A stretch of 64,000 nt of DNA from an uncultured Bacteroidales bacterium (GTDB lineage: Bacteria > Bacteroidota > Bacteroidia > Bacteroidales > UBA932). Below are positions 5,146 through 62,213 of this stretch, piece by piece. The notes under the pieces are model-generated. The model did no database searches and was not told the DNA's origin. It worked only from the letters and a program-made list of their open reading frames with translations. Numbering within the stretch: the first letter of the stretch is position 1; the number at the start of each line of letters is the position of its first letter. The stretch spans positions 38,831 through 102,830 of the forward strand of contig CALUST010000030.1 in assembly GCA_944323505.1 (NCBI GenBank), written 5' to 3'. The translations under genes and the position numbers were made by a program.

Positions 5146-6492
5146 CTATTCACCGGATACGGCAGCCCGGCCTTCAATCAGTTCCAGAAGCCTGTCTATG
5201 GCTTCATTCTCAGGGACATGACGGAGGACGGGTGATTTGCCTTTGTATATCGTTACCTTGTTGCCGCCTTCGCCTACATAGCCCCAGTCTGCATCAGCCA
5301 TCTCGCCCGGGCCGTTGACAATACAACCCATTACCGCGATGACCATGCCTTTCAGATGGGCTGTCCTGCGCTTGACTTCATTGAATGTGCTCTCCAGGTT
5401 GTACATTGTCCTGCCGCATCCGGGACAGGCTATGTATTCCGGTCTGTAGAAGCGTCTTCTGGCAGCCTGCATCAGTTCATCGCAGAGATACGCTGCCTCA
5501 TCGGAACCGTCAAGCGTCACAGCCTTGTCTCCATCAATGTACACGCCCCTGAGCTCAACCTCGTCAATCTCCCTGTCAAGAAGCCGTTTCCCGAAGTCAC
5601 AGGCGAAATCGGTTACCAGCACCTCTCTGGTAGGGGAGTGATATTCCGCGGATGCCTTCCTGCCCTCAAGAGACAGCGATACCATTGACGAATGTTTCCT
5701 GCCGTCATAGCGGTCCGCGATATGCCTGGCAACGGAAATCTCGTTGACCGGGTCTTCCGTCAGCGACACCCTCACAGTGTCTCCGATTCCTTCCGACAGG
5801 AGAGCCGAGATGCCGACAGCGGACTTCATCCTGCCTGCATCCCCGTTCCCGGCCTCGGTCACCCCCAGATGTACAGGGAAGACAATCCCTTTCTGTCTCA
5901 TGGCTTCATCCAGGAGCCGGTATGCCTCTACCATCACTATCGTATTGCTTGCCTTGAGCGAGACGACGACATTGTAAAAGTCATTGTCCACACACATGTT
6001 GAGCCATTCCATCGCAGCCTCCTTCATGGCATCAGGTGTGTTCCCGTACAGATTCGTGATCCTGTCCCCGAGAGAACCGTGGTTCAGTCCGATTCTGATG
6101 GCTGCGCCGCATCTCCGGCATACATCGACCAGCCTGGAGAACTGCGCCTTAGCCTGCTCATGATCCCTGTGGAAATTGCCGGGGTTTATCCGCACCTTAT
6201 CCACAATCTCCGCTGCGGCAATCGCTATGTCGGAAGAGAAGTGAACGTCTGCCACAAGCGGGATGTCAATATCCTCAGCCCTGAGCCTGTCCCTGACGGC
6301 CCGTAGAGCCTCCACCTCCTTCATCCCGGGGACCGTAAGTCTGATCATCTCCGCCCCGGCCTCATACATTCTCCTGCACTGAGAGACTGTAGCCTCTATA
6401 TCTGACGTGTGCGTATTGCACATTGTCTGGACCACGATATGATGGCCGTGGCCTATTGTGACATTTCCTGCCTTTGCTTCTATATATCTCAT
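5146..6492 (-). CDS. ispG: 4-hydroxy-3-methylbut-2-enyl diphosphate synthase IspG with a reduced insert domain
   Basis: Penultimate step of the MEP isoprenoid pathway: converts MEcPP to HMBPP with a [4Fe-4S] cluster. The 448 residues hold an N-terminal TIM barrel (about 1-260) and a C-terminal cluster domain with CPGCGRT at 356-362 (C356, C359) and CIVNGPGE at 390-397 (C390, E397). Family knowledge: E. coli-type enzymes have about 370 residues, whereas plant and most Bacteroidetes enzymes have 600 or more because of a large middle A* domain. Here only about 85-90 residues (264-350) lie between barrel and cluster domain, so this is an intermediate form. It is the last gene of the minus-strand run that starts at ligA, 14 nt after the barrel gene. 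Confidence 0.94.
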   Translation of the reverse strand: MRYIEAKAGNVTIGHGHHIVVQTMCNTHTSDIEATVSQCRRMYEAGAEMIRLTVPGMKEVEALRAVRDRLRAEDIDIPLVADVHFSSDIAIAAAEIVDKVRINPGNFHRDHEQAKAQFSRLVDVCRRCGAAIRIGLNHGSLGDRITNLYGNTPDAMKEAAMEWLNMCVDNDFYNVVVSLKASNTIVMVEAYRLLDEAMRQKGIVFPVHLGVTEAGNGDAGRMKSAVGISALLSEGIGDTVRVSLTEDPVNEISVARHIADRYDGRKHSSMVSLSLEGRKASAEYHSPTREVLVTDFACDFGKRLLDREIDEVELRGVYIDGDKAVTLDGSDEAAYLCDELMQAARRRFYRPEYIACPGCGRTMYNLESTFNEVKRRTAHLKGMVIAVMGCIVNGPGEMADADWGYVGEGGNKVTIYKGKSPVLRHVPENEAIDRLLELIEGRAAVSGE

Positions 6493-9284: not shown

Positions 9285-11528
9285 TTACAAATCCGTCCGG
9301 ACGACACTCTGGATGCCTTCTATCTTGTTCAGTTTCTTGATGAGTTTCTCAAGGTCATCCTTGTCATGCACATAGAGGTCGATGTAGCCTTCAAACACAC
9401 CGCCTTCGGTGCCGAGGCAGAAACGCCTGATATTCACACTCATGACAAGGGAAATGTACCGTGATATCTCATTTATGATGCCAAGCCTGTCAAATCCCTT
9501 GAGCGACAGCCTGACAAGGAACGAACTTGTGGCAGTCTCACCGTTCTTCCACTCAGGAACGACAATCCTGTCGCCGTGTTTCGCTGCGATGCTGTTTGCC
9601 ACAGGACAGCTCTTCTTGTGCACAGTGATGGTACCGTCCGAGGCAAGGAAACCGACCACGCTGTCTCCGGGTATAGGATTGCAGCAGTTGGCTATGACAT
9701 ATTTGTGTTTCGTGTCATTGACGTCATTTATCACATAAGATGAGTTCTTCTCCCTTTCCTTGTCCTTGCCTCTGAACCAGTTGAAGTTCCAAGGCCTACG
9801 GTCACCCTTGCTTTCGACATTCTTCAGTATCTCGTCCAGGTTGTTGAGCTTGAGCAAGCCTATGCCGACCCTGAAGTAAAGTTCATCGGCATTCTTCTCG
9901 AAAATCTCATAACCGTCGAGCATTGCCATGAGAGTATTCTCGTCGGCCTTCCTGCCGAGGGAGTTGAGCTGCTCCGCGACCATCTTCTTCCCGATGCGTA
10001 TGCTTTCCTGCCTTTCCCCTTTGAAATAGTCCAGGACGATATTCTTCGCCTTCCTTGTCTGAAGGAACTGAAGCCATTCCCTTTTCGGTTTCTCGTTCTC
10101 GGCTGTTATTATCTCCACCTGGTCGCCGGTACGCAGTTCGTATGACAGAGGGACGAGCCTCATGTTCACTTTCGCGGCAATCGCGCGGTTGCCGATCTCA
10201 GTATGTATGGAATAGGCGAAATCGAGGGCGGTGGCACCTTTCTGTATCCGCCTCTGGTCGCCTTTCGGTGTGAACACGAATATGTCTGTGGATGTGAGGT
10301 CATTGTGGATGATGTCCAGAAGTTCGAGAGCATTGACGTCAGGATCCACGAGAATCTCCTTGACCTTGTTTATCCACTTGTCCATCTCGCTGTCATTCTC
10401 TCCGACAAAGCCGTCCTTCTTGTATGCCCAATGGGCAGCGATTCCCTTCTCCGCGATGTCATCCATCCTCTTCGTGCGTATCTGCACCTCAATCCATATA
10501 CCTGAATCACTCATCACAGTGCAGTGCAGGGCCTCATAGCCGTTGTTCTTTGGATGCTTCACCCAGTCACGGATGCGGTCGCTCTTGTATCTGTATATCC
10601 CTGTTATGATGGAAAAGACATGATAGCACTGGTCCCTCTCGTTCTCGGTAGACGACGAGTCCGGATTGAAAATTATCCTCACGGCATACAGGTCATAAAT
10701 CTGGTCGAAAGTGATGTTCTTCGTCACCATCTTGTGCCAGATGGAATACGGGGTCTTGACACGTTTCCTGATCTCGAAGTCAAAACCTGCGGCCTTCAGA
10801 GCATTGCTGATAGGCAGGATGAAGTCGTCTATCTCCTTTTCCTTGTCAGTGATGTTCCTGTTGATTTTCTCGGTGATCTCGTTGAACACCTCCGGCTCCT
10901 TGTATCTGAGCCATATATCCTCCATCTCGGACTTCACCTCGTACAAGCCGAGCCTGTGGGCGAGCGGAATGAAGATGAACATGGTCTCGCTCAATATCTT
11001 CTCCCGCTTGTATTCAGGCATGAACTCAATGGTCCTGCAATTGTGCAGCCTGTCAGCCAGCTTGATCAGCACCACACGGACGTCGTCGTTCAAGGTCAGG
11101 AGTATGCGCTTGAAATTTTCTGCCTGCATACTCTTCTGCTTGGCCTTGTCCTCATTGTCCAGCACGGTCTTGATCTTTGTAAGCCCGTCCACAAGAGATG
11201 CTATCTTGTCCCCGAAAAGGTTGCGGATGTCATCGACAGTATAGTCCGTATCCTCCACAACATCGTGGAGCAGGGCGGCGGCGATTGACTTGTATCCGAG
11301 GCCTATGTTGCTGACCACAATCTTGGCGACGGCGATAGGATGGAGGATATAAGGCTCCCCGGAACGGCGTCTCACCCCCTTATGCGCCTCATTGGCAAAT
11401 TCGAAGGCCTTCTGGACCACATCGAGTTCGTTCTGGTTGGCACACCGTTTCCTCGCCGCCTCCTTAAGGTCGGCATAGTCTCTTGCTATGACTTCATAGT
11501 CTGCCTGTGTGAATTCCGTGACATTCAT
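9285..11528 (-). CDS. rel: Bifunctional (p)ppGpp synthetase/hydrolase of the Rel/SpoT type
   Basis: 747 residues with the complete long-RSH layout. The N-terminal HD hydrolase has H49, H63, HD at 88-89 and VEDTDYT just after, so hydrolysis looks intact. The synthetase domain (about 215-340) carries YDLYAVRIIF and GYEALHCTVM. A TGS domain follows at about 400-460 (IFVFTPKGDQRRIQKGATAL), then the conserved zinc-finger/helical region (CCNPIPGD) and a C-terminal ACT domain. It makes and removes (p)ppGpp in response to starvation. It begins 12 nt after the yihY-like gene and precedes the lipoprotein by 36 nt. Confidence 0.95.
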   Translation of the reverse strand: MNVTEFTQADYEVIARDYADLKEAARKRCANQNELDVVQKAFEFANEAHKGVRRRSGEPYILHPIAVAKIVVSNIGLGYKSIAAALLHDVVEDTDYTVDDIRNLFGDKIASLVDGLTKIKTVLDNEDKAKQKSMQAENFKRILLTLNDDVRVVLIKLADRLHNCRTIEFMPEYKREKILSETMFIFIPLAHRLGLYEVKSEMEDIWLRYKEPEVFNEITEKINRNITDKEKEIDDFILPISNALKAAGFDFEIRKRVKTPYSIWHKMVTKNITFDQIYDLYAVRIIFNPDSSSTENERDQCYHVFSIITGIYRYKSDRIRDWVKHPKNNGYEALHCTVMSDSGIWIEVQIRTKRMDDIAEKGIAAHWAYKKDGFVGENDSEMDKWINKVKEILVDPDVNALELLDIIHNDLTSTDIFVFTPKGDQRRIQKGATALDFAYSIHTEIGNRAIAAKVNMRLVPLSYELRTGDQVEIITAENEKPKREWLQFLQTRKAKNIVLDYFKGERQESIRIGKKMVAEQLNSLGRKADENTLMAMLDGYEIFEKNADELYFRVGIGLLKLNNLDEILKNVESKGDRRPWNFNWFRGKDKEREKNSSYVINDVNDTKHKYVIANCCNPIPGDSVVGFLASDGTITVHKKSCPVANSIAAKHGDRIVVPEWKNGETATSSFLVRLSLKGFDRLGIINEISRYISLVMSVNIRRFCLGTEGGVFEGYIDLYVHDKDDLEKLIKKLNKIEGIQSVVRTDL

Positions 11529-12481: not shown

Positions 12482-14632
<2,151 letters not shown>

Positions 14633-31693: not shown

Positions 31694-32899
31694 ATGACAA
31701 TGAACAGAAAGATAAGCGAAAGAATCAGATACGTGGGCGTCAACGATCATCACAAGGTGATTTTCGAAGGCATGTGGCCGCTTCCGTTCGGGGTGTCCTA
31801 CAACTCATATCTCGTCGTAGACGACAAGGTCGCACTGATTGATACGGCTGAGGCGGATTTCAGCAGGGAATTCCTCTCCAACATAAGGGAAGAGATAGGG
31901 GACAGGAAGGTCGACTACCTCATAGTCAATCACATGGAGCCGGACCATTCCTCGCTGATGAAGGACATCAGGGAGCAGTATCCTGAAATCCGGATTGTCA
32001 CCAATGCCAAGGCGGTCCCGATGATCAAAGGCTACTACGGCATCACTGACAACATCCATGTCATCAAGGAAGGGGATACTCTCGACCTCGGCTCTTCCGT
32101 CCTCAGTTTCCATCTGGCACCTATGGTGCACTGGCCGGAGACAATGGTGACATATCTCACCGAGGAAAAGACTCTGTTCTCCGGGGACGCATTCGGCACA
32201 TTCGGGGCTGTGGACGGCGAGATTACGGATGACGGGGCGCATCTGTGCGGCTGGCTTGACAAGGCGGAAAACTGCTTTGAAGAGTTCAAGGATGAAATGA
32301 CGAGATATTACTCGAATATCGTCGGCAAATACGGGCAGACGGTGCAGGCGGCATTGAAGAAACTGTCAAGTCTTGAGATCGGAAGGATATGCAGCACTCA
32401 CGGACCTGTATGGCAAAAACATATTCCTGAGGTGGTCTCTTTCTACGACAGGCTGAGCCGGTATGAAGGAGGAAGGGGAGTATGTATCGCCTATGCGTCA
32501 ATGTACGGCAACACCGCAAAGGCAGCCAAATCGCTTGCAGCGGAACTTGCCGCAAGAGGGATACCATATACTCTACATAATCTCTGCACAGAAAACGTGT
32601 CATACGCATACAGGGATGCGTTCAAATATGACACTGTCGCCATTGGCGCCCCTACATACAACAATGACATATTCCCTCCGGCATACAACTTCATGTACGG
32701 TCTCTGTGCAAGACTCCTAAAGAACAGGAGATTCTTCGCATTCGGGTCATACACATGGGCAGGAGCAAGTGTCAGGCTTCTCAATGAGATGGCTCAGAAA
32801 CAAGGATTTGAACTGATATCCGAGGGTATCAGTTTCCCGCAGGGCTTTACTCAGGAAAAATGTGACATGGGCAGAATCGCCGAACTGATGTCCAGATAG
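31694..32899 (+). CDS. Flavodiiron protein (FprA type; O2/NO reductase)
   Basis: Cytoplasmic enzyme that reduces oxygen to water or nitric oxide to N2O, a protective function in anaerobes. 401 residues: the metallo-beta-lactamase-like domain carries the di-iron ligands HMEPDH at 80-85, H146, D165 (SGDAFG) and H236 (STHGPVW); the flavodoxin domain begins near 262 with YASMYGNTAKAA binding FMN. No rubredoxin or flavin reductase module is fused, so electrons must come from a separate partner, probably rubredoxin. It is monocistronic, with its own promoter and a strong terminator just downstream. Confidence 0.94.
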   Translation: MTMNRKISERIRYVGVNDHHKVIFEGMWPLPFGVSYNSYLVVDDKVALIDTAEADFSREFLSNIREEIGDRKVDYLIVNHMEPDHSSLMKDIREQYPEIRIVTNAKAVPMIKGYYGITDNIHVIKEGDTLDLGSSVLSFHLAPMVHWPETMVTYLTEEKTLFSGDAFGTFGAVDGEITDDGAHLCGWLDKAENCFEEFKDEMTRYYSNIVGKYGQTVQAALKKLSSLEIGRICSTHGPVWQKHIPEVVSFYDRLSRYEGGRGVCIAYASMYGNTAKAAKSLAAELAARGIPYTLHNLCTENVSYAYRDAFKYDTVAIGAPTYNNDIFPPAYNFMYGLCARLLKNRRFFAFGSYTWAGASVRLLNEMAQKQGFELISEGISFPQGFTQEKCDMGRIAELMSR

Positions 32900-37672: not shown

Positions 37673-39400
37673 ATGGTACTACAGATTCTGACCCTGATCG
37701 GCGCTCTCGGAATGTTCCTCTACGGAATGAACACGATGAGTTCCGGCCTGCAGAAAGCGGCAGGCGAAAGATTGAGGGCTTTCCTCGCGGCAATGACATC
37801 CAATCCTTTCAAAGGAGTGCTGACAGGACTTGGAATCACGGCCATCATCCAGTCTTCAAGTGCGACGACAGTGATGGTCGTAGGCTTTGTGAATGCAGGC
37901 CTTCTGACCCTGACCCAGGCAGTCGGGGTGATAATGGGAGCCAACATAGGCACGACAGTGACGGCCTGGCTCATATCCCTGCTCGGATTCAAGATGGACA
38001 TATCCATCCTCTCGATTCCGCTCATGGCCGTAGGATTCATATGTTCCCTGGCCAAGAAAAGCAAGACGAAGAACATCGGCGAATTCATCATCGGATTCTC
38101 CCTGCTGTTTCTCGGCCTTTCATTCATGAAGGAGTCGGTCCCGGATCTTGAGACCCATCCGGAAGTCCTTTCGTTCATTTCCAAATGGACAGGTTTCGGA
38201 TTCGGTTCCGTCCTCATATTCCTGGTGTTCGGCACCCTGCTCACCCTGGTACTCCAGTCATCGAGCGCGACCGTGGCCCTCACCCTCATCATGCTCAACA
38301 TGGGCTGGATTCCATTTGAAATGGCTGCGGCAATGGTCCTCGGAGAGAATATCGGCACCACAATCACTGCAAACATTGCAGCCGCGGTCGGCAATACGCA
38401 GGCCAAGCGGGCAGCAATTGCGCATACGATGTTCAATGTATTCGGTGTCATCTGGGCATTGGCACTGTTCCGTCCGTTCCTCTCGTTCATAGGGAAGATC
38501 ATCACCCTTCTCGGCTATCCTGATCCTACCGTGACATCGTTCGTCGGGGAGATCGGCGGAGAACAGACCGATGCATCGACTGCGGCCCTGTACGGGGTGT
38601 CTATGCTGCATACGATGTTCAACCTCATCAACACCTGCCTGCTGATATGGTTCATCCCATGGATTGTCAAGGCGGTGAAATGGATCATCAAGAGTCCGGA
38701 CAAGGCTGAGGAGGAGAATTTCTCGCTCAGATACATCAATGCCGGGCACCTTGCAACAGCGGAGATGGCTCTTGAGCAGGCCATGAAGGAAATCATCCAT
38801 TTCTCGGAGATTTCCAAGAAAGGACTGGGATATGTAAGACTTGCAATCAACGAGAAAGATCCGGAGAAATTCGAGGAATACAGGCAGAAACTCGTGAAAT
38901 ACGAGGAGATCTCGGACAGGATTGAATATGAGATAGCATCATTCATGAACTCCCTCTCCAAAGAGGAGATCAGCGTGGAGTCGAAGTCCCAGATCAGAGC
39001 CATGTACAAGATAATCAGCGAACTGGAGAGCCTTGGGGACTCCGGGGAGGCAATCAGCCGCATTCTTTCCAGGAAGAATGCGCACGGGCAGGAGTTCAAT
39101 GAGGAGGAACTCAAGAAAATCGACCGTCTGATCGCCCTTGTCGACAAGGCATACGACGTCATGATAGCAAACCTGAATGTCGGGTTCGGCAATCTCAAGG
39201 ATATCACCAATGCCTACGATGCGGAGCAGAACATCAACGAGATGCGCAACAATCTCCGCGAGGAGGAGATTGTCAATCTCGAACATGACGGAAAGAACTA
39301 CCAGACCAGCGTCTACTACATGGACATCATCTCCGAACTGGAGACAATGGGAGATTTCATGATAAACGTGTCCCAGGCACTGGTAAAAAGCAAGGAATAA
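37673..39400 (+). CDS. Na+/phosphate cotransporter (NptA/PNaS family) with PhoU-like domain
   Basis: Inner-membrane sodium-coupled phosphate transporter. 575 residues: two inverted-repeat transport units, each with the family QSSSAT motif (60-65 and 195-200) and a following GANIGTT or GENIGTT segment; about nine hydrophobic helices up to residue 340; then a cytoplasmic PhoU-like helical domain (about 360-570, with ELESLGDSGEAISRI and ELETMGDFMINVSQ). Bacterial members import or export phosphate with Na+; direction is not readable. No pho regulon element is recognised upstream. Confidence 0.92.
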   Translation: MVLQILTLIGALGMFLYGMNTMSSGLQKAAGERLRAFLAAMTSNPFKGVLTGLGITAIIQSSSATTVMVVGFVNAGLLTLTQAVGVIMGANIGTTVTAWLISLLGFKMDISILSIPLMAVGFICSLAKKSKTKNIGEFIIGFSLLFLGLSFMKESVPDLETHPEVLSFISKWTGFGFGSVLIFLVFGTLLTLVLQSSSATVALTLIMLNMGWIPFEMAAAMVLGENIGTTITANIAAAVGNTQAKRAAIAHTMFNVFGVIWALALFRPFLSFIGKIITLLGYPDPTVTSFVGEIGGEQTDASTAALYGVSMLHTMFNLINTCLLIWFIPWIVKAVKWIIKSPDKAEEENFSLRYINAGHLATAEMALEQAMKEIIHFSEISKKGLGYVRLAINEKDPEKFEEYRQKLVKYEEISDRIEYEIASFMNSLSKEEISVESKSQIRAMYKIISELESLGDSGEAISRILSRKNAHGQEFNEEELKKIDRLIALVDKAYDVMIANLNVGFGNLKDITNAYDAEQNINEMRNNLREEEIVNLEHDGKNYQTSVYYMDIISELETMGDFMINVSQALVKSKE

Positions 39401-40918: not shown

Positions 40919-41623
40919 ATGGGCAAACTTTACGACGAACTTGCTAAAGACTACAGGATAAAGGAAGGGCTCAAGACCTGCATCAATTGCGGCACATGCA
41001 CTGCCATCTGTCCTGCAGCCGAATTCTATAAATACGATCCCAGGAAGATTGTCGATATAGTCCAGAGCAAGGATGACGCAGAGATTGAGAAACTTCTCAA
41101 AAGCGATGTCATCTGGTACTGCGGGGAATGTATGTCATGTGTGACAAGATGTCCTCGCAAGAATGCACCAGGACTGGTGCTGATGGCTCTGAGGAATCTT
41201 TCCGCCAGACTCGGATATTTCGTGAACTCCGAAAAAGGGAGACAGCTGTACCCCCTGACCAAGACACTCACCGGCAACATACTCAACTACGGATACTGCG
41301 TGTATCCGGATACATTCAAATGGGAGGATCATGTCGAGTCGGGTCCTGTCATGAAATGGCATCTGGAGCACAAGGAGGACTCCTTTGCGAGAGTCGGTGC
41401 CAACTATAAGGGGACCGGGCCTGGTATTCTGAGGAAGATACCGCAGGAGTCGCTGGACGAACTGAAAAGAATATTCGACGTCACCGGAGGCACGGAAAGG
41501 ATTGAGACAGTGTACAGGTGCTCCGAAGAGAAGGCAAAGGAGATGGGTATGGACATGGACGAGTATTTCGAAGAGACATTCACACATATCTCCCCCGGGC
41601 ATCTGAACGGAGAAGATGAATAA
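40919..41623 (+). CDS. HdrC-like iron-sulfur subunit
   Basis: 234 residues with two classical [4Fe-4S] motifs: CINCGTCTAICP (residues 21-32) and CGECMSCVTRCP (68-79). In heterodisulfide reductases HdrC relays electrons between the flavin subunit HdrA and the catalytic HdrB. The C-terminal 130 residues have no further clusters. No membrane segment. It is the first gene of the operon, 26 nt before the HdrB-like gene. It resembles HdrC1 of sulfur-oxidation (sHdr) clusters by position and size, which is inference from gene order. Confidence 0.85.
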   Translation: MGKLYDELAKDYRIKEGLKTCINCGTCTAICPAAEFYKYDPRKIVDIVQSKDDAEIEKLLKSDVIWYCGECMSCVTRCPRKNAPGLVLMALRNLSARLGYFVNSEKGRQLYPLTKTLTGNILNYGYCVYPDTFKWEDHVESGPVMKWHLEHKEDSFARVGANYKGTGPGILRKIPQESLDELKRIFDVTGGTERIETVYRCSEEKAKEMGMDMDEYFEETFTHISPGHLNGEDE

Positions 41624-41649
41624 AGAACGTTACCGAACCTGAACCGCAA

Positions 41650-42720
41650 ATGATTTACCAAGGAAAACAGAAAATATGGGCGGATTACCAGAAAGAGATT
41701 CCTGATGACCACTGGTACTATGTGCGCAGCTGCATCAGGCAGAATTTCTTCCCGGGAGCAGAGAAGATGTTCCTCGAAATCTGCCGCAACGTCCTGAAAA
41801 AGGACTTTCATGAAAACGAGAACCATACCACCTGCGGAGGCATTGCATACCACTGCGACACAATTCCGCAGGAGACTGTCATGACAATAGTCGCAAGACA
41901 GTTCGCTCTGATGACAGAAGCAGGATATGAGAACTACGTGTGCTCCTGCATAACGTCATTCGGCAACTACATCGAGATACTCGAGACGTGGAATGAATTC
42001 CCCGAACTGGAGACCAAGATAAGGGAAATGCTCTGGAAAGCATGCAGACGCGAGTTCAACAAGCCTAAATATGTGGCCCATGCGAGTGACCTGATATACA
42101 AATACAGGAATCTCATAGCGGAAAGGGCCAAGTTCAGGCTCGTGAACAAGCACACGGGAGAGCCTCTCAAAGTCGTGGAGCACATAGGATGCCACTACTC
42201 CAAGATGTTCCCGTCCAAAGGCGTAGGCGGGGCCGAATACCCGTACGTGCTCTGCGGGATGATAGAATCATGGGGAGGGAACGTCATAGACTACCCTGAA
42301 AGACGCCATTGCTGCGGCTACGGGTTCAGACAATATCATGTCAAGGCCAACAGAGGCTATTCAATCTCCAACACCCACAAGAAATTCGAATCCATGGAAC
42401 CGTATCATCCTGACATGATCATCACAAACTGCCCAGGATGCCCGTACTTCATGGACAGATGGCAGTATGCCATAGCGGAGATGGAAGGCAAGACATACGG
42501 GGAGAACGGCTACGGCATCCCTGTATTCACCTACGAGGAAGTGGCAGGGCTTGTGCTGGGCTACGACCCGTGGGATCTCGGACTGCAGCTGCATCAGGTG
42601 GCTGTGGAACCGCTGCTTGACAAGATAGGCATCGAATATGACCCTGCCAGGAAGTACGAAGGAGTCAACCACAAGGATCTGCAGAGACCTGAACTCCCCG
42701 GGGTCCTGAGATGCTGCTGA
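41650..42720 (+). CDS. HdrB-like subunit with one intact CCG domain
   Basis: 356 residues. The C-terminal CCG motif is complete: C181, 39 residues, C221-C222-G, 38 residues, C261-x-x-C264, expected to bind a non-cubane [4Fe-4S] cluster that handles disulfides or persulfides. The N-terminal repeat is altered: TCGG at 61-64 has one Cys where two are usual, and C98-S-C100 replaces CxxC. The N-terminal cluster is therefore probably missing or different. Last residues are RCC. HdrB1-type proteins of sHdr systems also deviate from the methanogen pattern. It lies 26 nt after HdrC and 70 nt before the HdrA-like gene. Confidence 0.82.
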   Translation: MIYQGKQKIWADYQKEIPDDHWYYVRSCIRQNFFPGAEKMFLEICRNVLKKDFHENENHTTCGGIAYHCDTIPQETVMTIVARQFALMTEAGYENYVCSCITSFGNYIEILETWNEFPELETKIREMLWKACRREFNKPKYVAHASDLIYKYRNLIAERAKFRLVNKHTGEPLKVVEHIGCHYSKMFPSKGVGGAEYPYVLCGMIESWGGNVIDYPERRHCCGYGFRQYHVKANRGYSISNTHKKFESMEPYHPDMIITNCPGCPYFMDRWQYAIAEMEGKTYGENGYGIPVFTYEEVAGLVLGYDPWDLGLQLHQVAVEPLLDKIGIEYDPARKYEGVNHKDLQRPELPGVLRCC

Positions 42721-42790
42721 CCTGTACAGGACTGGCACACTACCAAAAAGAGAAACTACAGATGCCTGCTGCATCTGCAAAATCAGAGAC

Positions 42791-43810
42791 ATGAAAGACA
42801 ATATCCTCATAATAGGCGGAGGAATCGCCGGACTTGAAGCAGCCTCGCAACTTCTGAAACTGGGATACAATCCCATCATTGTGGAGAAATCGGACCATCT
42901 CGGAGGCCATGTCGCCGACTGGAACAGACTTTTCCCCGACATGACTCCGGCAGAAGAGGTCGTGTCAAGGCTTGTAGCCGAGACAAGCGAGGCGAATATT
43001 TTCCTCAATACGGAAATCTCATTCGTCAACAAGTTGAAGGACAGTTACAACATAATGCTCTCAAACGGCATCTCCGTCATCACAGGGACACTTCTGTTCG
43101 CAACCGGATTCTCGATGTTCGACGCATCGAAAAAAGAGGAATACGGCTACGGAATCTATAACCAGGTGATGACCAACCGCGATCTCGAGCACTGGTTCAA
43201 CACCGGCAAGGATGCGAGAATCCCGGAGGAAGGCCCGGCCGCCATGGGCTTTGTCCATTGTGTCGGCTCGAGAGACGAAAAGGCCAGGAATCCGCAATGT
43301 TCCAAAGTATGCTGCATCACGGCTGTCAAGCAGGCAATCGAGATGAAGCAGAAGTTCCCTGAGGCGATGATATATTGCTTCTATATGGATCTGAGGATGT
43401 TCGGCAAGAAATACGAGGATTTCTACATCAGCGCGCAGAGGGACTACGGGATACGCTTCATCCGCGGCCGTGTCTCGGAAGTCAGCGAGAATATTGAAGG
43501 CAAACTCATTGTAAAGGCCGAGGACACCCTTTCCGGAAAGCCGGTCAAAGTCACTCTCGACCTGCTTGTCCTCATGGCTGGCATCGTATGTAATCCGGAT
43601 ACATGCAAGACCGCCGGTCTCATTTCACTTCCTGTGGATTCTGACGGCTTCCTGAAAAGCCGTGACAATATCGCCGACATCACGGAATCTCCAAAGGAAG
43701 GCATCTTCTATGCCGGAGCCTGCACGGGGCCCAAGACCGTCCCTGAGACACTTGCAGAGGCACGGTCTGCAGCACTTGAGATACATAACTACATTTCACG
43801 GAAGAAATGA
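42791..43810 (+). CDS. Short HdrA-like flavoprotein
   Basis: 339 residues. FAD-binding GGGIAGLEAA near the N-terminus, then the HdrA iron-sulfur motif C157...C170-x3-C174-C175 (HCVGSRDEKARNPQCSKVCC) and the family signature YMDLRMFGKKYEDFY (198-212). It ends with the usual FAD-closing strand GIFYAGACTGPKT. Methanogen HdrA has about 650 residues with added ferredoxin domains; this form lacks them and matches the short HdrA of sHdr and Qmo-type complexes. It probably mediates two-electron chemistry between the Hdr clusters and a soluble partner. Its stop overlaps the next gene by 4 nt (ATGA). Confidence 0.87.
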   Translation: MKDNILIIGGGIAGLEAASQLLKLGYNPIIVEKSDHLGGHVADWNRLFPDMTPAEEVVSRLVAETSEANIFLNTEISFVNKLKDSYNIMLSNGISVITGTLLFATGFSMFDASKKEEYGYGIYNQVMTNRDLEHWFNTGKDARIPEEGPAAMGFVHCVGSRDEKARNPQCSKVCCITAVKQAIEMKQKFPEAMIYCFYMDLRMFGKKYEDFYISAQRDYGIRFIRGRVSEVSENIEGKLIVKAEDTLSGKPVKVTLDLLVLMAGIVCNPDTCKTAGLISLPVDSDGFLKSRDNIADITESPKEGIFYAGACTGPKTVPETLAEARSAALEIHNYISRKK

Positions 43811-44136
43811 TGGATTTCGGATTCAAAATATCCCCGAGTTCAGCCGTGAACCTGGACAATGTGGACCTCTCCCTGTACGACAGGCTGGCAGAGGTGGAGC
43901 CGGACATACGCAAATGTATTGCATGCGGTTCATGTTCTGCATCCTGCCCTGCCAACAGATTCTCCGGGATGAGCGTCCGCAAGGCTATCCTCGGCCTGCA
44001 GCGGGGAAAGGAAAAGGAAGTCGCAAAGATGCTCTCGACCTGCATGCTCTGCGGGAAATGCTCAATGGTATGCCCGCGAGGCATCAACACGAGACATCTG
44101 ATTCTGTCAATCTGCAAATTCTATAAGGAGGACTGA
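43807..44136 (+). CDS. Second HdrC-like two-cluster ferredoxin
   Basis: 109 residues with CIACGSCSASCP and CMLCGKCSMVCP, two [4Fe-4S] motifs of HdrC type, and little else. It overlaps the HdrA-like stop by 4 nt and ends 3 nt before the membrane subunit. A second small HdrC next to a second HdrB-type protein is the layout of sHdr clusters (C2-B2). It likely carries electrons from the HdrA/B module to the membrane subunit. Confidence 0.85.
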   Translation: MMDFGFKISPSSAVNLDNVDLSLYDRLAEVEPDIRKCIACGSCSASCPANRFSGMSVRKAILGLQRGKEKEVAKMLSTCMLCGKCSMVCPRGINTRHLILSICKFYKED

Positions 44137-44139
44137 CGC

Positions 44140-45942
44140 GTGAGAGAAAGATTTCTGACAGGATACAATGACTTTGTGCTGCCGTTCATGATAGGACTGA
44201 TATTCATCCTGTCATACTGCCTCATAGGTCTTGTACGTATCATACTCCAGCTCCCTAAGGAAGACCGCAGACGCTTCTTCCTGTCCCTGGTCAATCCGAA
44301 GACCATGGCCAAGAATATCAGGGACATATTCTGCGACTGCCTGTTCCATGTCAAGCTATGGAAACGTAACAAGTTGCTGGGCTACATGCATTCCAGCATA
44401 GCCTTCGGATGGTTCATGCTGATTGTGATAGGACATATTGAAGTCCTTCTGTACACTCCGCACAGGGCGAAGCTTTTCTATTTCCCTATCTTCTTCAGGT
44501 ACTTTGTCGCAGAGACCGAAAGCACGATGAGGGGCGCATTCTTCTTCTTCCTTATGGACTTCTTCCTGCTGATGGTGCTCAGCGGCATATTCCTGGCCAT
44601 GTTCAAAAGACTGCAGTCCCGTATCTTCGGCATGAGGAGGACGACCAATCCGAGTTTCCTCGACCTGGTAGGCCTGTACTCACTGTGGTCGATATTCCCT
44701 CTGAGACTTCTGGCTGAAGGTTTCACAGCTGACATAAGCGGAGGCTCATTCCTCACCAAGTCCCTGAACTATGTCCTCAATTCATTCCTCAGCGACCACA
44801 CTAATATGCTCCCTGCATGGTGGGCTTATTCGTGCGCCCTGGGAATATTCTTCGTGGTCCTGCCATTCACGCGGTATATGCATATCCCGACGGAGATTCT
44901 CCTGATACCGCTCCGTAATGCCGGCATCAAGATAAGGAACGCAAGAAAGGGATTTGCCAAGGCAGAGGTATATTCATGTCCGAGTTGCGGGCTCTGCATT
45001 GATGCCTGCCCTATGGGCGTGATGAAGACCCACATCAAGGACACGACTGTCTATCTGAACAGGCAGATCCGCAGACGGAACGAGAGACGCATAGAGGAAA
45101 TAAGCGACAAATGTCTTCTGTGCGGGAAATGTACGGCAATCTGTCCTGTAGGTGTCGAGGGGGACAAGTTGAGGATAGCCCAGAGGTCACTGAGAAAATA
45201 TTCCATCAATCCTGACTATTCTGACATATCGACGGCAGAACTGGCATGCAGCTCCGAAGGCAAGGTACTGTACTATGCAGGCTGCATGACGGCTCTCACT
45301 CCCGCCATAAGGAAGGCAATGGAATCGCTTCTGCAGAAGGCAGGAGTGGACTACGAACTTATGGACAAGGACGGCGGCATCTGCTGCGGGCGGCCGATGA
45401 TGATGGCCGGGAGGTTTGACCAGGCCAGGCAGATGGTGGAGAAGAACACGGAAATAATACGTAATTCCGGAGCCACCACCCTGCTCCTGACCTGTCCTAT
45501 CTGCTACAGGATATTCAAGGAGAAATACAACCTCGAAGGGATAGAGATCATCCACCATACCGAATATATCGACAGGCTCATAAAGGCCGGCAGGCTGAAA
45601 ATCAGGAAGGGCAAGGCAAAATATGTCTACCATGACCCGTGTGAACTCGGCAGGGGCTGCGGTATCTATGACCAGCCTCGTGAGGTGCTCGCCTCTGCAG
45701 GAAGACTTGTCGAGGCGGCAAAGAACAGGAAAGAGAGCATCTGCTGCGGAGGCAGCCTGGGCAGCCTGACCCTTGGGTTCGACAAAAGAAAGGCAATGAC
45801 AGAGAATGCACTTGCCAATCTGACATCCGCATCACCGGACGTGATAGTGACTGCGTGCCCTCTGTGCAGGAGCACGTTCAACAGATACGCAGACAGGCCT
45901 GTAGAGGACCTGGCGGAAATTATAGATAAAAAAAGCATATAA
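44140..45942 (+). CDS. Membrane HdrE/HdrD-like fusion: cytochrome-b-type domain, two [4Fe-4S], two CCG domains
   Basis: 600 residues, GTG start preceded by an unusual strong Shine-Dalgarno AAGGAGG (44125-44131). About five membrane helices occupy residues 12-250, with H84, H99 and H248 as possible haem b ligands as in HdrE/NarI-type subunits. Next come CPSCGLCIDACP (280-291) and CLLCGKCTAICP (325-336), then two complete CCG domains: C382, C415-C416, C452-x-x-C455 and C501, C535-C536, C573-x-x-C576. This joins what are separate subunits in HdrDE or DsrMK. Expected to exchange electrons between menaquinone and a disulfide or sulfur-carrier reaction on the cytoplasmic face. Its stop is one base from the next ATG. 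Confidence 0.85.
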   Translation: MRERFLTGYNDFVLPFMIGLIFILSYCLIGLVRIILQLPKEDRRRFFLSLVNPKTMAKNIRDIFCDCLFHVKLWKRNKLLGYMHSSIAFGWFMLIVIGHIEVLLYTPHRAKLFYFPIFFRYFVAETESTMRGAFFFFLMDFFLLMVLSGIFLAMFKRLQSRIFGMRRTTNPSFLDLVGLYSLWSIFPLRLLAEGFTADISGGSFLTKSLNYVLNSFLSDHTNMLPAWWAYSCALGIFFVVLPFTRYMHIPTEILLIPLRNAGIKIRNARKGFAKAEVYSCPSCGLCIDACPMGVMKTHIKDTTVYLNRQIRRRNERRIEEISDKCLLCGKCTAICPVGVEGDKLRIAQRSLRKYSINPDYSDISTAELACSSEGKVLYYAGCMTALTPAIRKAMESLLQKAGVDYELMDKDGGICCGRPMMMAGRFDQARQMVEKNTEIIRNSGATTLLLTCPICYRIFKEKYNLEGIEIIHHTEYIDRLIKAGRLKIRKGKAKYVYHDPCELGRGCGIYDQPREVLASAGRLVEAAKNRKESICCGGSLGSLTLGFDKRKAMTENALANLTSASPDVIVTACPLCRSTFNRYADRPVEDLAEIIDKKSI

Positions 45943-45943
45943 C

Positions 45944-47233
45944 ATGACATTCGCACCTGTTAAGTACAAACTTATGAACTGCGGAACAGGCAGGCTCTTT
46001 GAAGATGAGGGATGGACACTTGCAGACCCTCAGGGAGACAGCCCTGCCCTTGTGAGAGCAGTCTATGAAAAAAAGGAATTCGAATTGAGGAAAGACCTTG
46101 ACGGATTCTATAAATTCGCCAACTGGCTCCCGATAAAGAGGACTTTGCTCCACTCACATGTCCCTGTCACATACAAGAGCAAGGGACTGGCAGAGCATCT
46201 GGGTCTCGACAATCTCTACATCACATTCTCCGGTTATTTTCCGAGAATAGGGGCGCAGATGGCGACCTGCTCGTTCAAGGAGACGGAAGCCTATTCCGTA
46301 TGCGCAAGACTGCCTGAGGACAACGACAGGATTCTGGTGGTGTCGTCAGCCGGCAACACAGCGAGGGCATTTGCCCAGGTATGCTCGGACAACAACATCC
46401 CGCTGCTGCTCACAATACCGTATGACAACATAAATGCGTTGTGGTTCAAGAAGCCGCTCAATGACTGCGTCAGAATCATCGCCGCTCCTGCAGGCTGCGA
46501 CTATTTCGACGCGATAGTCCTCGGTGACAAGGTATGCCAGTCCCCAAGGTTCATGGCAGAAGGAGGGGCGAAGAACATAGCAAGAAGAGACGGAATGGGA
46601 ACTACCCTGCTCTCTGCCGTGGAGGTGACAGGCAGGATTCCTGATGCGTATTTCCAGGCCATAGGAAGCGGCACCGGAACAATAGCCGTCTGGGAAAACA
46701 ACCTCAGACTGATTGAAGACAGACGTTTCGGCAAGCACAGGATGAGGCTGTATCCGTCCCAGAACGCACCGTTCACCATCATGTATGACTCGTGGAAGGC
46801 GCATTCACGCCAGCTCGTACCGCTTTCTGCAGAGGAAGCAAGGGCACAGGCGGCGGAAATCAAGGCGAAGGTACTCTCCAACAGGAAACCGCCTTACTCC
46901 CTTGCAGGAGGGCTTTTCGATGCCATGAACGATGCCGGAGGAGATATGTTCAAAGTCACAAACCGGGAACTCGATGAATGGAAAGAGAGATTCCAGAGGC
47001 TTGAAGGCATCGACATATATTCCGCAGCATCTGTCGCCGTCGCCAGCTTGGCACAGGCAGTGCAGACCAAGGCCGTGCAGAAAGACGAACTCATCATGCT
47101 CAACATCACAGGCGGCGGGGAATCCCTCACCAAGGAGCACCATGATGTAGTATATGCAAAGCCGGACATGGTCATCGACACCTATCTCCCTGCTGAAGAG
47201 ATCATCAGTAAAGTCGAGACCCTGTTCCGATAA
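45944..47233 (+). CDS. Cysteate synthase-like PLP enzyme (threonine synthase family)
   Basis: 429-residue fold-II PLP enzyme. The Schiff-base lysine is in CSFKETEA, after LYITFSGYFPRIGAQM; VVSSAGNTARAFAQV binds the PLP phosphate region and NITGGGESL lies near the C-terminus. The FSGY phrase before the PLP lysine and the FKFANWLP-like segment upstream recall archaeal cysteate synthase, which makes L-cysteate from O-phosphoserine and sulfite, more than true threonine synthase. This is a judgement from memory; threonine synthase or another beta-replacement is possible. Its ATG starts one base after the membrane Hdr-like gene, so translation is probably coupled. Cysteate would be a precursor of sulfonolipids (capnines) made by several Bacteroidota. 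Confidence 0.65.
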   Translation: MTFAPVKYKLMNCGTGRLFEDEGWTLADPQGDSPALVRAVYEKKEFELRKDLDGFYKFANWLPIKRTLLHSHVPVTYKSKGLAEHLGLDNLYITFSGYFPRIGAQMATCSFKETEAYSVCARLPEDNDRILVVSSAGNTARAFAQVCSDNNIPLLLTIPYDNINALWFKKPLNDCVRIIAAPAGCDYFDAIVLGDKVCQSPRFMAEGGAKNIARRDGMGTTLLSAVEVTGRIPDAYFQAIGSGTGTIAVWENNLRLIEDRRFGKHRMRLYPSQNAPFTIMYDSWKAHSRQLVPLSAEEARAQAAEIKAKVLSNRKPPYSLAGGLFDAMNDAGGDMFKVTNRELDEWKERFQRLEGIDIYSAASVAVASLAQAVQTKAVQKDELIMLNITGGGESLTKEHHDVVYAKPDMVIDTYLPAEEIISKVETLFR

Positions 47234-47254
47234 TTTCAAGAAATACCCGTAAAT

Positions 47255-48190
47255 ATGCTGAACCATATCCTCCAGGTCTCCATTACGCCCGCAGACACTG
47301 CCGTCGTCAGCAAACTGGAGACAAATGCCAGGGAAACAATTGAGCACATCGCCACGACACCGCTGGAAGAACTCCTGCCGGAACTCATAAACAATGCGAT
47401 ACACTTCGGAATCAAGGTCCTGATCGCGCTGCTGATATACTTTGTAGGAGCGTGGATCATCAAGAAGATCAAAGGGGTGCTCCACAGGATCTTCGAAAAG
47501 AGAAAGACCGAAAAGGCCATCGCCTCATTTGTGGAGAGCCTGACAAGTATCACACTCACGATCATACTCATCATCATAACCATAGGTACGCTCGGAGTGA
47601 ACACCACATCCCTGGCCGCCCTGCTGGCTGCCGGAGGTATGGCCATAGGTATGGCAATGAGCGGTACTGTGCAGAATTTTGCCGGAGGCATCATGATTCT
47701 CGTCTTCAAGCCATTCAAGGACGGGGACTTCATTGAGACCGAAAACGGCTACTCAGGCACGGTATCCGATGTGAACATCTTCAGCACCAAACTCACCACG
47801 ACTGACAACAGGCTGATAATAATACCGAACTCGACACTGTCCAACGGCACTGTCAACAATTTCTCGCGCAACACCATGCGCAGAGTTGAATGGCTCGTAG
47901 GCGTCGAATACGGGACAGATGTGGAACAGGTGAAAAAGGCTCTTCAGGATATTGTCGATGAAGAGAAGAGAGTGCTCTACTCCTCTACAGGTGCTCCTGC
48001 AGACCCGCTGATTGCAGTAAATGCCCTTCAGGACAGTGCCGTGCAATATGTCGTGAGAGTATGGGTCAAGTCATCTGACTACTGGGACGTATTCTACTGC
48101 CTGAACGAGAAGATATACACGCAACTGCCGGAGAAAGGCATCGACTTCCCGTTCCCGCATCTCGATGTGCAAGTGACAAGACAGGGCTGA
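47255..48190 (+). CDS. MscS-family small-conductance mechanosensitive channel
   Basis: 311 residues. An N-terminal amphipathic leader (with EELLPELINNAIHF) precedes three membrane helices; the pore-lining TM3 is AALLAAGGMAIGMAMSGTVQ, followed by the signature NFAGGIMILVFKPFKDGD FIE and the beta domain (SGTVSDVNIFSTKLTT, IIPNS). It releases small solutes on hypo-osmotic shock; some relatives export amino acids. It is 21 nt after the cysteate-synthase-like gene and likely the last gene of that operon, but a link with sulfonate export is only a guess. It converges with the acyltransferase, 2 nt apart. Confidence 0.9.
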   Translation: MLNHILQVSITPADTAVVSKLETNARETIEHIATTPLEELLPELINNAIHFGIKVLIALLIYFVGAWIIKKIKGVLHRIFEKRKTEKAIASFVESLTSITLTIILIIITIGTLGVNTTSLAALLAAGGMAIGMAMSGTVQNFAGGIMILVFKPFKDGDFIETENGYSGTVSDVNIFSTKLTTTDNRLIIIPNSTLSNGTVNNFSRNTMRRVEWLVGVEYGTDVEQVKKALQDIVDEEKRVLYSSTGAPADPLIAVNALQDSAVQYVVRVWVKSSDYWDVFYCLNEKIYTQLPEKGIDFPFPHLDVQVTRQG

Positions 48191-59561: not shown

Positions 59562-62213
59562 TCATTTTCCTTTCATCGCCGCAATGGCAGCCTTGAGACT
59601 CTCTATCTTGGAGAGAGAGTCCGCCTCTTTCTTACGTTCATTCGCAACCACCTGTTCCGGGGCATTTGCGACGAATTTCTCGTTTGTAAGTTTCTTGCGC
59701 ACAGAGGCAAGGAACTTCTCCTGATAGTCAAGGGCAGCCTCCATCTTGGCGAGTTCCTCCCCGGCATCCACAAGCCCAGTCAGAGGCACGGACATCTCTA
59801 TGGTCCTGACCATGAACGACACGCCCGCCGCATCTCCGAATGAATCCACCTTCTCCACTGAGGAAATGTTCGCAAGCCTGGTCACTACCGGCATGACTTC
59901 CTGAGGGAAATCTCCTTTCACCTTGAGAGAAAGCGCATCCCTTGGAGAGAGCCCCTTCTGCTGACGGATACTGCGGACAGCCACCACGGCCTCACACGCC
60001 ATCTCGAAATCCGAGATGAAAGCCCTGTCGCAAGGGGCTGAGACAGGCATCCTCTGCAGCATTATAGTCTCCCCGTCCTTTCTCTCCTCCATATTCTGCC
60101 ACAACTCCTCGGTGATGAACGGCATGAAAGGATGTATCATCTTGAGGAGTGAATCGAAGAATCCTTTCGTGGCCTCGTATGTCGAAGCATCGATACCTGC
60201 CCCGTATGCCGGCTTGACAAGTTCGAGATACCACGAGCAGAAATCGTCCCAGAACAACTTGTAGACAGCCATCAGGGCATCCGAGATCCTGAACTTGGAA
60301 TAGTGGTCCTCCACATCTGCAAGCACTGCGTTCAACTTGTTGCCAAACCATCTGACAGCCACGGAAGCGGCCTCAGGATGCCTTGCGGCAGCATCGACAT
60401 TCCATCCGGAAACAAGCCTGTAGGCATTCCATATCTTGTTGCAGAAGTTCCTGCCCTGCTCCACCTGCGACTCGTCAAAAAGGATGTCATTGCCGGCTGA
60501 CGTACAGAGCAGCATTCCGAGTCTTACCCCGTCCGCACCATATTTCGCTATGAGTTCAAGAGGATCAGGGGAATTGCCCAGGGTCTTGGACATCTTCCGC
60601 CCGAGCTTGTCCCTCACGATACCTGTAAGATAGACATTCCGGAACGGCACGTCATGCATGAACTCGTTTCCTGCCATTATCATCCTCGCCACCCAGAAGA
60701 ACAGGATGTCCGGTCCGGTGACAAGGTCATTTGTAGGATAATAATATGCCAGATCCCGGTCTGGCTCGGCATCAGGGTGTCCTGCCTTGTGTGTGTCAAA
60801 GACCGAGATCGGCCACAGCCATGAAGAGAACCAGGTGTCGAGCACATCTTCATCCTGCCTGAGATCTGCCGCAGTAAGATCAGGATTGATGCTCCTGGCA
60901 GCCTCAAGTGCGGCTTCCGGAGTCGCCTCCACCACATATCTGCCGTCAGGCAGATAATATGCAGGAATCCGCTGCCCCCACCACAACTGACGGGAGATGC
61001 ACCAGTCCCTAACATTCTCCATCCAATGCCTGTATGTGTTCCTGTATTTGTCAGGGATGAGCCTTACCTTGCCGCTTTCCACAGACTCCAAGGCATCCTT
61101 CGCAAGGGCATCCATCTTCAGGAACCACTGCATGGACAGCCTCGGCTCTATGACCGCATTGGTCCTCTCCGAATATCCGACAGGTGAAGTATAGTCCTCG
61201 ACCTTCTCCAGATTGCCGGCCTCCGCGAGCATAGTCTCAATCTTCTTTCTCGCCTCGAACCTGTCCTCTCCGACAAGTATCCGGGCCTTTTCATTGAGAC
61301 GGCCGTGGTCATCTATTATGTCGATGACAGGGAGATTGTGCCTCTGCCCTATCTCGTAGTCATTCACATCATGAGCAGGGGTCACCTTCAGGCATCCTGT
61401 ACCGAAGCCCATCTCCACATAACTGTCCTCAATGATAGGAATCTCCTTGTTTATCAACGGGATGAGCACCTTCTTCCCTTTCAGCCAATGGTATCTTTCG
61501 TCCTCCGGATTGATACATACGGCAGCATCCGCCATGATGGTCTCCGGCCTTGTCGTGGCTATTATTATATATTTGTCCGTAGGATGCCCCTCCCCGTCGG
61601 AGATGAAATATCTCAGATGGTAGAACTTGCTGACAGTGTCCCTGTGGATGACCTCCTCATCGCTTACCGCAGTATGGCCTACAGGATCCCAGTTGACCAT
61701 CCTGATACCTCTGTAGATATATCCTTTCTTGTAGAAATATACGAAAGTATTGATTACCGCCTCACTCAGGTCCGGGTCCATTGTGAACTTCGTCCTGTCC
61801 CAGTCGCACGAGGCACCCAGTTTGCGCAACTGGTTGAGAATGATGCCCCCGTGCTTCTCTTTCCATTCCCATGCGTATTTCAGGAACTCTTCCCTCGTGA
61901 GACTTTCCTTGTCAATCCCCTCTGCTTTGAGCTTGGCGACGACCTTGCTCTCTGTCGCTATCGACGCATGGTCAGTACCAGGCACCCAGCACGCATTCTT
62001 GCCGTCCATCCTGGCCTTGCGCACCAGCACATCGTTCAATGTATTGTTGAGCACATGCCCCATGTGCAGGATACCGGTCACATTTGGAGGAGGTATCACT
62101 ATCGTATAAGGCTCCCTCTCATCAGGTTCCGAATGAAAAAACTTGTTTTTCAGCCAATAGGCATACCACTTGTCCTCCGTCTCGGCAGGATTGTACTTTG
62201 CTGGAAGTTCCAT
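59562..62213 (-). CDS. valS: Valyl-tRNA synthetase
   Basis: 883 residues. Class I motifs: [16 protein letters not shown] (HIGH-type HMGH) and [10 protein letters not shown] (KMSKS). The editing CP1 domain carries [19 protein letters not shown] and [17 protein letters not shown], both conserved in ValS. The C-terminal coiled-coil arm ([20 protein letters not shown]) is present. First gene of the minus-strand operon that ends at 54159. Its leader (about 64 nt) holds a perfect CTAAAAA/TTTTTAG stem (62250-62268), not a recognised T-box. Confidence 0.97.

Follow-up and report, generated by a model that had tools for sequence, protein, structure and literature searches.

Our analysis of a 64,000-nucleotide stretch of DNA from an uncultured Bacteroidales bacterium (positions 38,831 to 102,830 of contig CALUST010000030.1, assembly GCA_944323505.1; hereafter the window) revealed five genes for subunits resembling heterodisulfide reductase (Hdr), designated here C1, B1, A, C2 and DE, the last being a membrane E/D fusion, followed immediately by a gene for cysteate synthase (Table 1). 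The link between this Hdr run and the genes of sulfonolipid biosynthesis is well supported, both by adjacency and by co-occurrence across genomes. Sulfonolipids are membrane lipids that contain sulfur and resemble sphingolipids. The reading we somewhat favour is that of a sulfur-oxidising Hdr-like complex, attached to the membrane and made up of the five subunits, which would serve the biosynthesis of cysteate and sulfonolipids. The genome carrying the window comprises 1.93 Mb in 49 contigs and is 90% complete; its nearest named relatives are metagenome-assembled genomes (MAGs) of animal-gut Bacteroidales, several of them 'Candidatus Cryptobacteroides' and one 'Candidatus Merdivivens'. All seven genes described in a first-pass annotation of the window, made from the sequence alone, were recovered at the same positions, and family and structure searches agreed with its labels. 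The genes are tightly packed: C2 overlaps A by 4 bases, a single base separates the fusion from cysteate synthase, and 21 bases separate the latter from a gene for an MscS-type channel.

Table 1. Genes of the Hdr run and its downstream neighbours, with positions in the window.
Feature	Position	Strand	Basis of assignment
HdrC-like subunit C1, 234 aa	40919..41623	+	NCBIfam HdrC models, 66-79 bits, below equivalog cut-offs; Fer4 domains
HdrB-like subunit B1, 356 aa	41650..42720	+	HdrB model, 130 bits, below cut-off; alignment to solved HdrB
Short HdrA-like flavoprotein A, 339 aa, without ferredoxin domains	42791..43810	+	Alignment to 6tjr
HdrC-like subunit C2, 109 aa	43807..44136	+	HdrC model and domain matches; two [4Fe-4S] motifs
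Membrane HdrE/HdrD fusion DE (EtfD-like), 600 aa, GTG start	44140..45942	+	Domains, AlphaFold model, fold search
Cysteate synthase (PLP enzyme, threonine-synthase superfamily), 429 aa	45944..47233	+	TIGR03844, 9k3c
MscS-type mechanosensitive channel	47255..48190	+	Family and domain matches

Cysteate synthase forms cysteate from sulfite and O-phosphoserine. The first-pass annotation had assigned the pyridoxal 5'-phosphate (PLP)-dependent enzyme to this function with some doubt, which a profile search settled: the protein scored 442 bits against TIGR03844, well over the equivalog cut-off of 324.9, and 36.6 bits against the best threonine synthase model. Among solved structures, the chain 9k3c, 'Cysteate synthase', matched along its length with 565.4 bits, and the best threonine synthase chain reached 31.7. 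By these scores the enzyme is a cysteate synthase and not a threonine synthase. In favour of a threonine synthase in an accidental neighbourhood are the shared superfamily and the three PALP matches of this incomplete genome, none of which was recognised as a threonine synthase, the other two being, by eye, threonine dehydratase-like and cysteine synthase-like. Set against both pairs of scores, by which the threonine synthase assignment was rejected, and against the conserved adjacency described below, such a reading is scarcely credible.

Conservation of the run was surveyed in 79 genomes of the family, representing 25 genera, a genome being counted as Hdr-positive when it encodes the fusion at E < 1e-50. 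The fusion is present in 33 of these genomes and cysteate synthase above cut-off in 36, the two occurring together in 28 (Fisher test, 2e-9; shared ancestry is ignored in this and the following family and order tests). In 26 of the 28 (25 fetched loci and the window), the fusion has cysteate synthase as its immediate downstream neighbour; in the two exceptions the latter lies 3.4 kb downstream (G067) or the contig ends (G066). The whole six-gene order is kept in 23 of the 28 (22 loci and the window); it is not complete in G012, G066 and G074, where contigs end, and in G030. Given this conservation across family genomes, the six-gene adjacency is not due to chance. A second set consisted of loci from the best 80 of at least 586 relatives ("named loci"); partly these come from the same MAGs as the family genomes, so that the two sets are not independent. 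Eight of the 80 end too early for the gene after the fusion to be judged. In 42 of the 72 judged loci this gene is cysteate synthase, within 600 bases in 38, as overlapping open reading frame calls in three and at 695 bases in one. The MscS gene is present in only 7/34 fetched Hdr loci and 25/80 named loci, for which reason it was rejected as a member of the conserved unit, to which it probably does not belong.

The first-pass annotation had counted against a sulfonolipid pathway that no other gene of this pathway lies in the window. Other sulfonolipid genes were found elsewhere in the same genome. A search with a SulA-like protein identified SulA, a cysteate acyltransferase, on another contig (C31:21564-22817), directly followed by a gene for a short-chain dehydrogenase/reductase (SDR). 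The SulA protein scored 562 bits to 28eh ('Cysteate-C-fatty acyltransferase'), 587 bits to 7u7h and 221 bits to serine palmitoyltransferase; 7u7h, recorded as a '7-keto-8-aminopelargonate synthetase-like enzyme', is presumably SulA as well. According to the portion available of the study that describes SulA chemistry for relatives, SulA is distinguished from serine palmitoyltransferase by Lys281, located 30 residues after the PLP lysine, Lys251 (PMC9304779). The diagnostic spacing is kept in the protein of the window's genome (K252 and K282), and a lysine 30 residues after the PLP lysine is found in all 85 SulA-like sequences scoring above 300 bits, 66 of them distinct. The 3-ketocapnine reductases described so far in the accessible text of PMC11211663 belong to the SDR family. 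The genome thus holds all three components of the capnine pathway, namely cysteate synthase, SulA (CFAT) and a ketocapnine reductase candidate in the form of the SDR beside SulA.

SulA scored above 450 bits in 44 of the 79 family genomes: in 33/33 Hdr-positive ones and in 11/46 Hdr-negative ones (Fisher test, 6e-13), and none of the 35 SulA-negative family genomes has the Hdr fusion. Five Hdr-positive genomes are without a canonical cysteate synthase (G001, G006, G014, G044 and G007). The first four hold a divergent PLP relative, labelled altPLP here, which lies beside SulA in G001, G014 and G044; G007 has only a weak match. In a class-wide sample, the fusion was found in 3/395 genomes and cysteate synthase above cut-off in 4/395, the window's genome being included in both counts. 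The order sample comprised 295 Bacteroidales genomes, with B1 at E 1e-45 as the mark of Hdr; B1 was present in 91 of them (66 of 183 genera) and the fusion in 89. SulA was searched in 80 of the 295, mostly one per family (44 with B1 and 36 without, most of the latter being scored negative by absence from match lists that name negatives only in part). It was detected in 43/44 genomes with B1 and in 25/36 without (Fisher test, 8e-4), or in 42/43 when the fusion was also required, as G522 lacks it. The gene set therefore did not prove to be common in genomes devoid of sulfonolipid genes, in either the family or the order, and the link proposed in the first-pass annotation is strengthened by these counts as well as by adjacency.

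The same samples bear on another explanation, namely, that the run encodes a general thiol- or sulfide-to-menaquinone module, for energy or sulfide detoxification, which does not feed cysteate synthase and whose sulfonolipid neighbours are explained by a shared role in sulfur and envelope physiology. It would account for the wide occurrence of B1 in the order and for 40 order-level loci with no cysteate synthase, SulA, altPLP or VOC gene in the stretch covered, which in some of them is short. All five Hdr genes are labelled in 30 of these loci, and eight are without a C2 label only; L337 is cut and L344 consists of C1-B1 only. An Hdr system is also described in Black Sea anaerobes, for which relief of sulfide toxicity is suggested in the accessible part of the report (PMC11129491). 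Against such a module stand the near-constant company of SulA in Hdr-positive genomes of both samples and the joining of the run to SulA and cysteate-synthase-like genes in several arrangements, and we consider it unlikely.

These arrangements are best seen in loci where the Hdr run shares one strand with SulA. They read VOC-SulA-SDR-C1-B1-A-C2-DE-cysteate synthase in L049 (G011) and VOC-SulA-altPLP-SDR-C1-B1-A-C2-DE in L230 ('Candidatus Cryptobacteroides choladohippi'). In two other families the order is SulA-altPLP-C1-B1-A-C2-DE-SDR (L380) and SulA-altPLP-C1-B1-A-C2-DE (L381), and in a third family it is SulA-altPLP-SDR-VOC-C1-C2-DE-B1-A (L382); L063 and L072 present two further orders of similar linked runs. 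Among the 80 named loci, SulA is found in 12, VOC in 10 and altPLP in one. In a B1 tree of 77 rows, restricted to B1 of at least 250 aa, the linked rows require at least four label changes, and linkage appears in separate supported clades; the group of L380, L381, L382 and L072 (100/100 support) stands apart from the group of the window. As the run is joined to SulA in L380-L382, and in L380 and L382 to the SDR gene too, the complex might be thought to catalyse a later redox step of sulfonolipid formation, on the acyl chain or the head group, rather than to provide sulfite. Most family loci read, however, join the run to cysteate synthase without SulA, and in the window's own genome SulA and the SDR gene are on another contig; moreover, the chemistry of CCG and HdrA proteins in known systems is sulfur chemistry. 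A later redox step is thus very unlikely.

Several features of these neighbourhoods are worth recording. The altPLP gene lies beside SulA at L382:8450-9670, L380:3351-4583, L381:5912-7141, L089:9377-10600, L072:2946-4202 and L063:8622-9941. Its product is about 20% identical to cysteate synthase (18-22% in four examples), is closer to threonine synthase chains and has, by eye, CxxC pairs at the N terminus; it may represent a further kind of cysteate synthase, so far unrecognised. A protein of about 360 aa from the VOC/glyoxalase superfamily is encoded beside SulA at L049:17000-18079, L382:6169-7239, L143:8461-9534 and in L230 near 3965, and in three of these four loci it also adjoins the Hdr run. 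In G044, which is 76% complete, the SulA match is split over two frames near the C terminus (L072:4221-5631), possibly by an assembly error or decay. Other neighbours that recurred, in related genera, among 48 clustered loci were a MarR-type regulator (11 loci) and a CarB-like protein (10 loci), both named by eye, and a SulP-type anion permease (9 loci), the identity of which was checked on the L079 member.

The subunits C1, B1, A and C2 match the HdrC, HdrB, HdrA and HdrC models, respectively, and the fusion matches HdrD-type CCG proteins. The equivalog cut-offs, those of the HdrA, HdrB and HdrC models included, are missed by far in all five, so the subunits are Hdr-like and not classical Hdr. 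C1 carries two [4Fe-4S] motifs (C21/24/27/31 and C68/71/74/78). The C-terminal CCG half of B1 is complete (C181, C221, C222, C261 and C264), and the N-terminal half has three invariant cysteines (C28, C62 and C100); all eight are invariant in 11/11 aligned relatives. At the places where the solved HdrB appears to hold two further ligands, by the ligand numbers that we assume for it, B1 has T/S at position 61 and an invariant S103. Such an N-terminal site might bind an unusual cluster in which one position is left open. Residues 5-330 of A align with the 349-aa chain 6tjr, and with full-size HdrA chains the alignment is confined to about 92-330; four cysteines (C157/C170/C174/C175) are invariant in 9/9 sequences. 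The 6tjr record is named a fumarate reductase/succinate dehydrogenase flavoprotein domain protein, and we take it to be sHdrA of Hyphomicrobium.

The fusion consists of N-terminal helices, two [4Fe-4S] motifs and two complete CCG domains, with two candidate haem ligands, H84 and H248, invariant in 21/21 sequences. Its AlphaFold model, built from 21 sequences, has a pLDDT of 86.9, and the best PDB fold for it is the mycobacterial electron-transfer flavoprotein (ETF):menaquinone oxidoreductase EtfD (9ojn; E 4.3e-20, TMq 0.72), with 16% identity over the structural alignment. In EtfD, which reduces menaquinone, the b haem has His78 and His241 as its ligands and lies beside a putative menaquinone site (PMC13083937). 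The spacing of H84 and H248 is nearly that of these two ligands. In the model, the fusion is a helical b haem domain joined to two [4Fe-4S] clusters and two CCG domains, haem binding being predicted. The suggestion of the first-pass annotation that electrons go to menaquinone gains from a membrane subunit that models like a menaquinone-reducing enzyme, and by analogy with EtfD we infer that the fusion would exchange electrons with menaquinone.

The sHdr systems of the Hyphomicrobium type have the gene order hdrC1B1A-hyp-hdrC2B2 in the section consulted of PMC12345210. The window run resembles them in the order C1-B1-A-C2 and in a short A without ferredoxin domains that aligns lengthwise with 6tjr. 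Unlike them, it has no hyp gene and no separate soluble B2, the membrane HdrE/D fusion being in the place of B2; no LbpA was found in the window's genome, and runs of the window type are linked to biosynthetic sulfonolipid genes in several lineages. The complex is, therefore, not sHdr proper. Its membrane subunit is laid out like HdrDE and EtfD, which likewise combine a haem-type helical domain, two [4Fe-4S] motifs and two CCG domains in one chain, but here the chain is encoded together with C1, B1, A and C2. The soluble HdrABC of methanogens has homologous A, B and C subunits; it differs in that the window A is without the N-terminal part and the ferredoxin domains, that the N-terminal CCG half of the window B1 keeps three invariant cysteines, and that the equivalog cut-offs are missed. 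The capnine pathway, as described in the literature found, includes no Hdr complex, and no paper containing both 'sulfonolipid' and 'heterodisulfide reductase' was returned by the literature search. An Hdr system and capnine lipids are both mentioned for marine anaerobes in the accessible part of PMC11129491, which does not join them to each other. The families are thus known ones, and their combination, that is, an sHdr-like soluble part, an EtfD-like membrane subunit and a sulfonate pathway, is absent from the literature found.

A source of sulfite other than sulfate assimilation appears to be needed in most of these bacteria. CysH was found in only one of the 33 Hdr-positive family genomes (G045, which also has CysD, each over its cut-off), and 28 of the 33, including the window's, have no PF01507 match at E 1e-10. 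The matches in G006, G011 and G064 were far below the CysH cut-offs, and G045 has one more, its third, that fell into no NCBIfam family, so none of them was counted as CysH; in G061, CysD is over its cut-off. As far as these genomes show, some of them being incomplete, CysH-type sulfate assimilation is not the origin of sulfite in most of the Hdr-positive ones. A simple inverse relation between Hdr and CysH was not found, as 11 Hdr-negative, SulA-positive family genomes are also without CysH; the only PF01507 match among these lies in an 890-aa frame of G027. The absence of CysH means a need for another sulfite source, and it does not prove that Hdr is that source. According to PMC12345210, PDO and SOR need molecular oxygen, and rDsr and sHdr do not. 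Release of sulfite by sHdr is described for Hyphomicrobium in the part seen of PMC12423496.

Our preferred reading, a sulfur-oxidising complex, starts from enzyme identities, gene linkage, SulA co-occurrence, the EtfD-like fold and the lack of CysH, all taken from tool results; from these we infer, by analogy, the substrate, the product (sulfite) and the direction of the complex. Sulfane sulfur, derived from sulfide or cysteine and presented on a carrier or a small thiol, would dock at the CCG-type Fe-S sites of B1 and A and be oxidised there to sulfite. The electrons would pass through the flavin adenine dinucleotide and Fe-S clusters of A, C1 and C2 to the Fe-S clusters and b haem of the E/D fusion, and on to menaquinone. 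Cysteate synthase would combine the sulfite with O-phosphoserine, and SulA and the SDR ketoreductase, encoded elsewhere in the genome, would convert the resulting cysteate to capnine for sulfonolipids. With menaquinone as acceptor, the step from sulfide-level sulfur to sulfite is close to thermoneutral, judged by redox potentials, and the formation of cysteate would draw it forward.

Sulfite could also be formed reductively, if thiosulfate, S-sulfocysteine or another S-sulfonate were cleaved at the CCG sites, in the direction usual for heterodisulfide reductases, to a thiol and the sulfite used for cysteate. Clusters of the HdrB/HdrD type cleave S-S bonds reductively in known heterodisulfide reductases, as reported in the available part of PMC13083937, and the SulP-type permease recurring in the loci lies beside cysteate synthase in L079 and L083. 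From standard potentials, on the other hand, menaquinol would need an input of membrane energy to reduce thiosulfate. The A subunit resembles that of sHdr systems, which are known to work oxidatively, and no recurring soluble electron-donor partner was seen in the loci read. We regard reductive formation as quite improbable.

A number of observations weigh against sulfite formation by the oxidative complex. The first-pass proposal that it supplies or handles sulfite for the neighbouring cysteate synthase is partly supported: it is upheld in its gene link and not in a literal sHdr interpretation, for which both LbpA and B2 are wanting. First, the sulfur carrier: the sole GCV_H match in the window's genome is a true GcvH, which passes the gcvH equivalog cut-off and is encoded in a gcvT-gcvH-gcvP run, so that LbpA was not found, although a copy may have been missed given the completeness of the genome; DsrC is absent too, and TusA and rhodanese were not searched. 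Second, the run is not uniform. The G030 locus (L067, around 7966) reads A-C2-DE-cysteate synthase with no recognisable B1 alongside, in a neighbourhood otherwise conserved, and in 30 of the 72 judged named loci, many from rumen MAGs, the fusion is not followed by cysteate synthase, nor was another partner gene found that is common to them; the 40 order-level loci bare of sulfonolipid genes belong here as well. Third, sulfonolipid genes also occur apart from the complex, SulA in the 25 B1-negative order genomes given above, and cysteate synthase in eight family genomes without Hdr. PF01507 found no match in these eight at E 1e-10 either; lacking it as well as Hdr, they must have another sulfite source. 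Fourth, the counts themselves are weakened by shared ancestry and by incomplete MAGs, with G006, G012, G044 and G066 below 90% among the 33 Hdr-positive genomes and the window's own just at that value. Finally, oxidation and reduction cannot be told apart from sequence.

The distribution of DsrC was examined alongside. DsrC is present in 8/79 family genomes, from two genera only. Four of the eight genomes with cysteate synthase and no Hdr have it (G036, G054, G068 and G077), and the other four, all of one genus, are without both Hdr and DsrC. In G054 (L079:238-7885), one strand carries genes for DsrC, HmcE/HmcF-like proteins, a cysteine desulfurase-family protein, a KamA-like radical SAM protein, cysteate synthase and a SulP permease. 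The DsrC and HmcE/HmcF-like module occurs in two gut Bacteroidales genera and was also seen at L384:1803-5225 (G010) and in L273-L276; its DsrC has the C-terminal motif AC(R/K)(V/I)AGLPKPDGCV with two cysteines, and a cysteine desulfurase-family gene adjoins it in G054 and G010. Like the window complex, this is a CCG/Fe-S membrane redox module, found on the same strand as cysteate synthase in a genome without Hdr; unlike it, the module includes DsrC and the cysteine desulfurase-family gene, and it lies beside cysteate synthase in one genome only. In G077, also without Hdr, DsrC and cysteate synthase are far apart on a single contig, and the latter is flanked by a formate/nitrite-type (FNT) channel on one side and a SulP-type permease on the other, a MarR-type regulator being encoded upstream (L083:8465-12816); these flanks possibly indicate import of an anion such as sulfite.

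Elsewhere in the window, a fusion of an ODP-type metallo-beta-lactamase fold with flavodoxin (31694-32899) has the layout of a flavodiiron protein. Housekeeping genes around the run, all on the reverse strand, encode GcpE, RelA/SpoT, an NAD-dependent DNA ligase and a class I (I/L/M/V) tRNA synthetase (5146-6492, 9285-11528, 12482-14596 and 59562-62213).

Hdr chemistry is known from methanogenesis and sulfur oxidation; if our reading is right, it also serves lipid biosynthesis. No paper on the origin of the sulfonate sulfur of sulfonolipids was found in a literature search with 'cysteate', 'sulfonolipid' and 'sulfite', and the present gene set makes the origin of sulfite in anaerobes without sulfate assimilation testable. 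For the wider proposal, that anaerobic Bacteroidales possess their own sulfite route, independent of O2, ATP and sulfate and purely anabolic, in which a membrane-bound sHdr-like complex uses menaquinone to oxidise sulfur at the level of sulfide or cysteine and so feeds cysteate and sulfonolipid synthesis, we find the case evenly poised. If true, the complex would be the missing sulfur input in members devoid of CysH, its place being taken in sister genera by DsrC-based or other modules. In gut Bacteroidota, sulfonolipids have been connected with immune and diet effects in the host (PMC11211663), and a route of this kind would tie luminal sulfide to a bioactive class of lipids.

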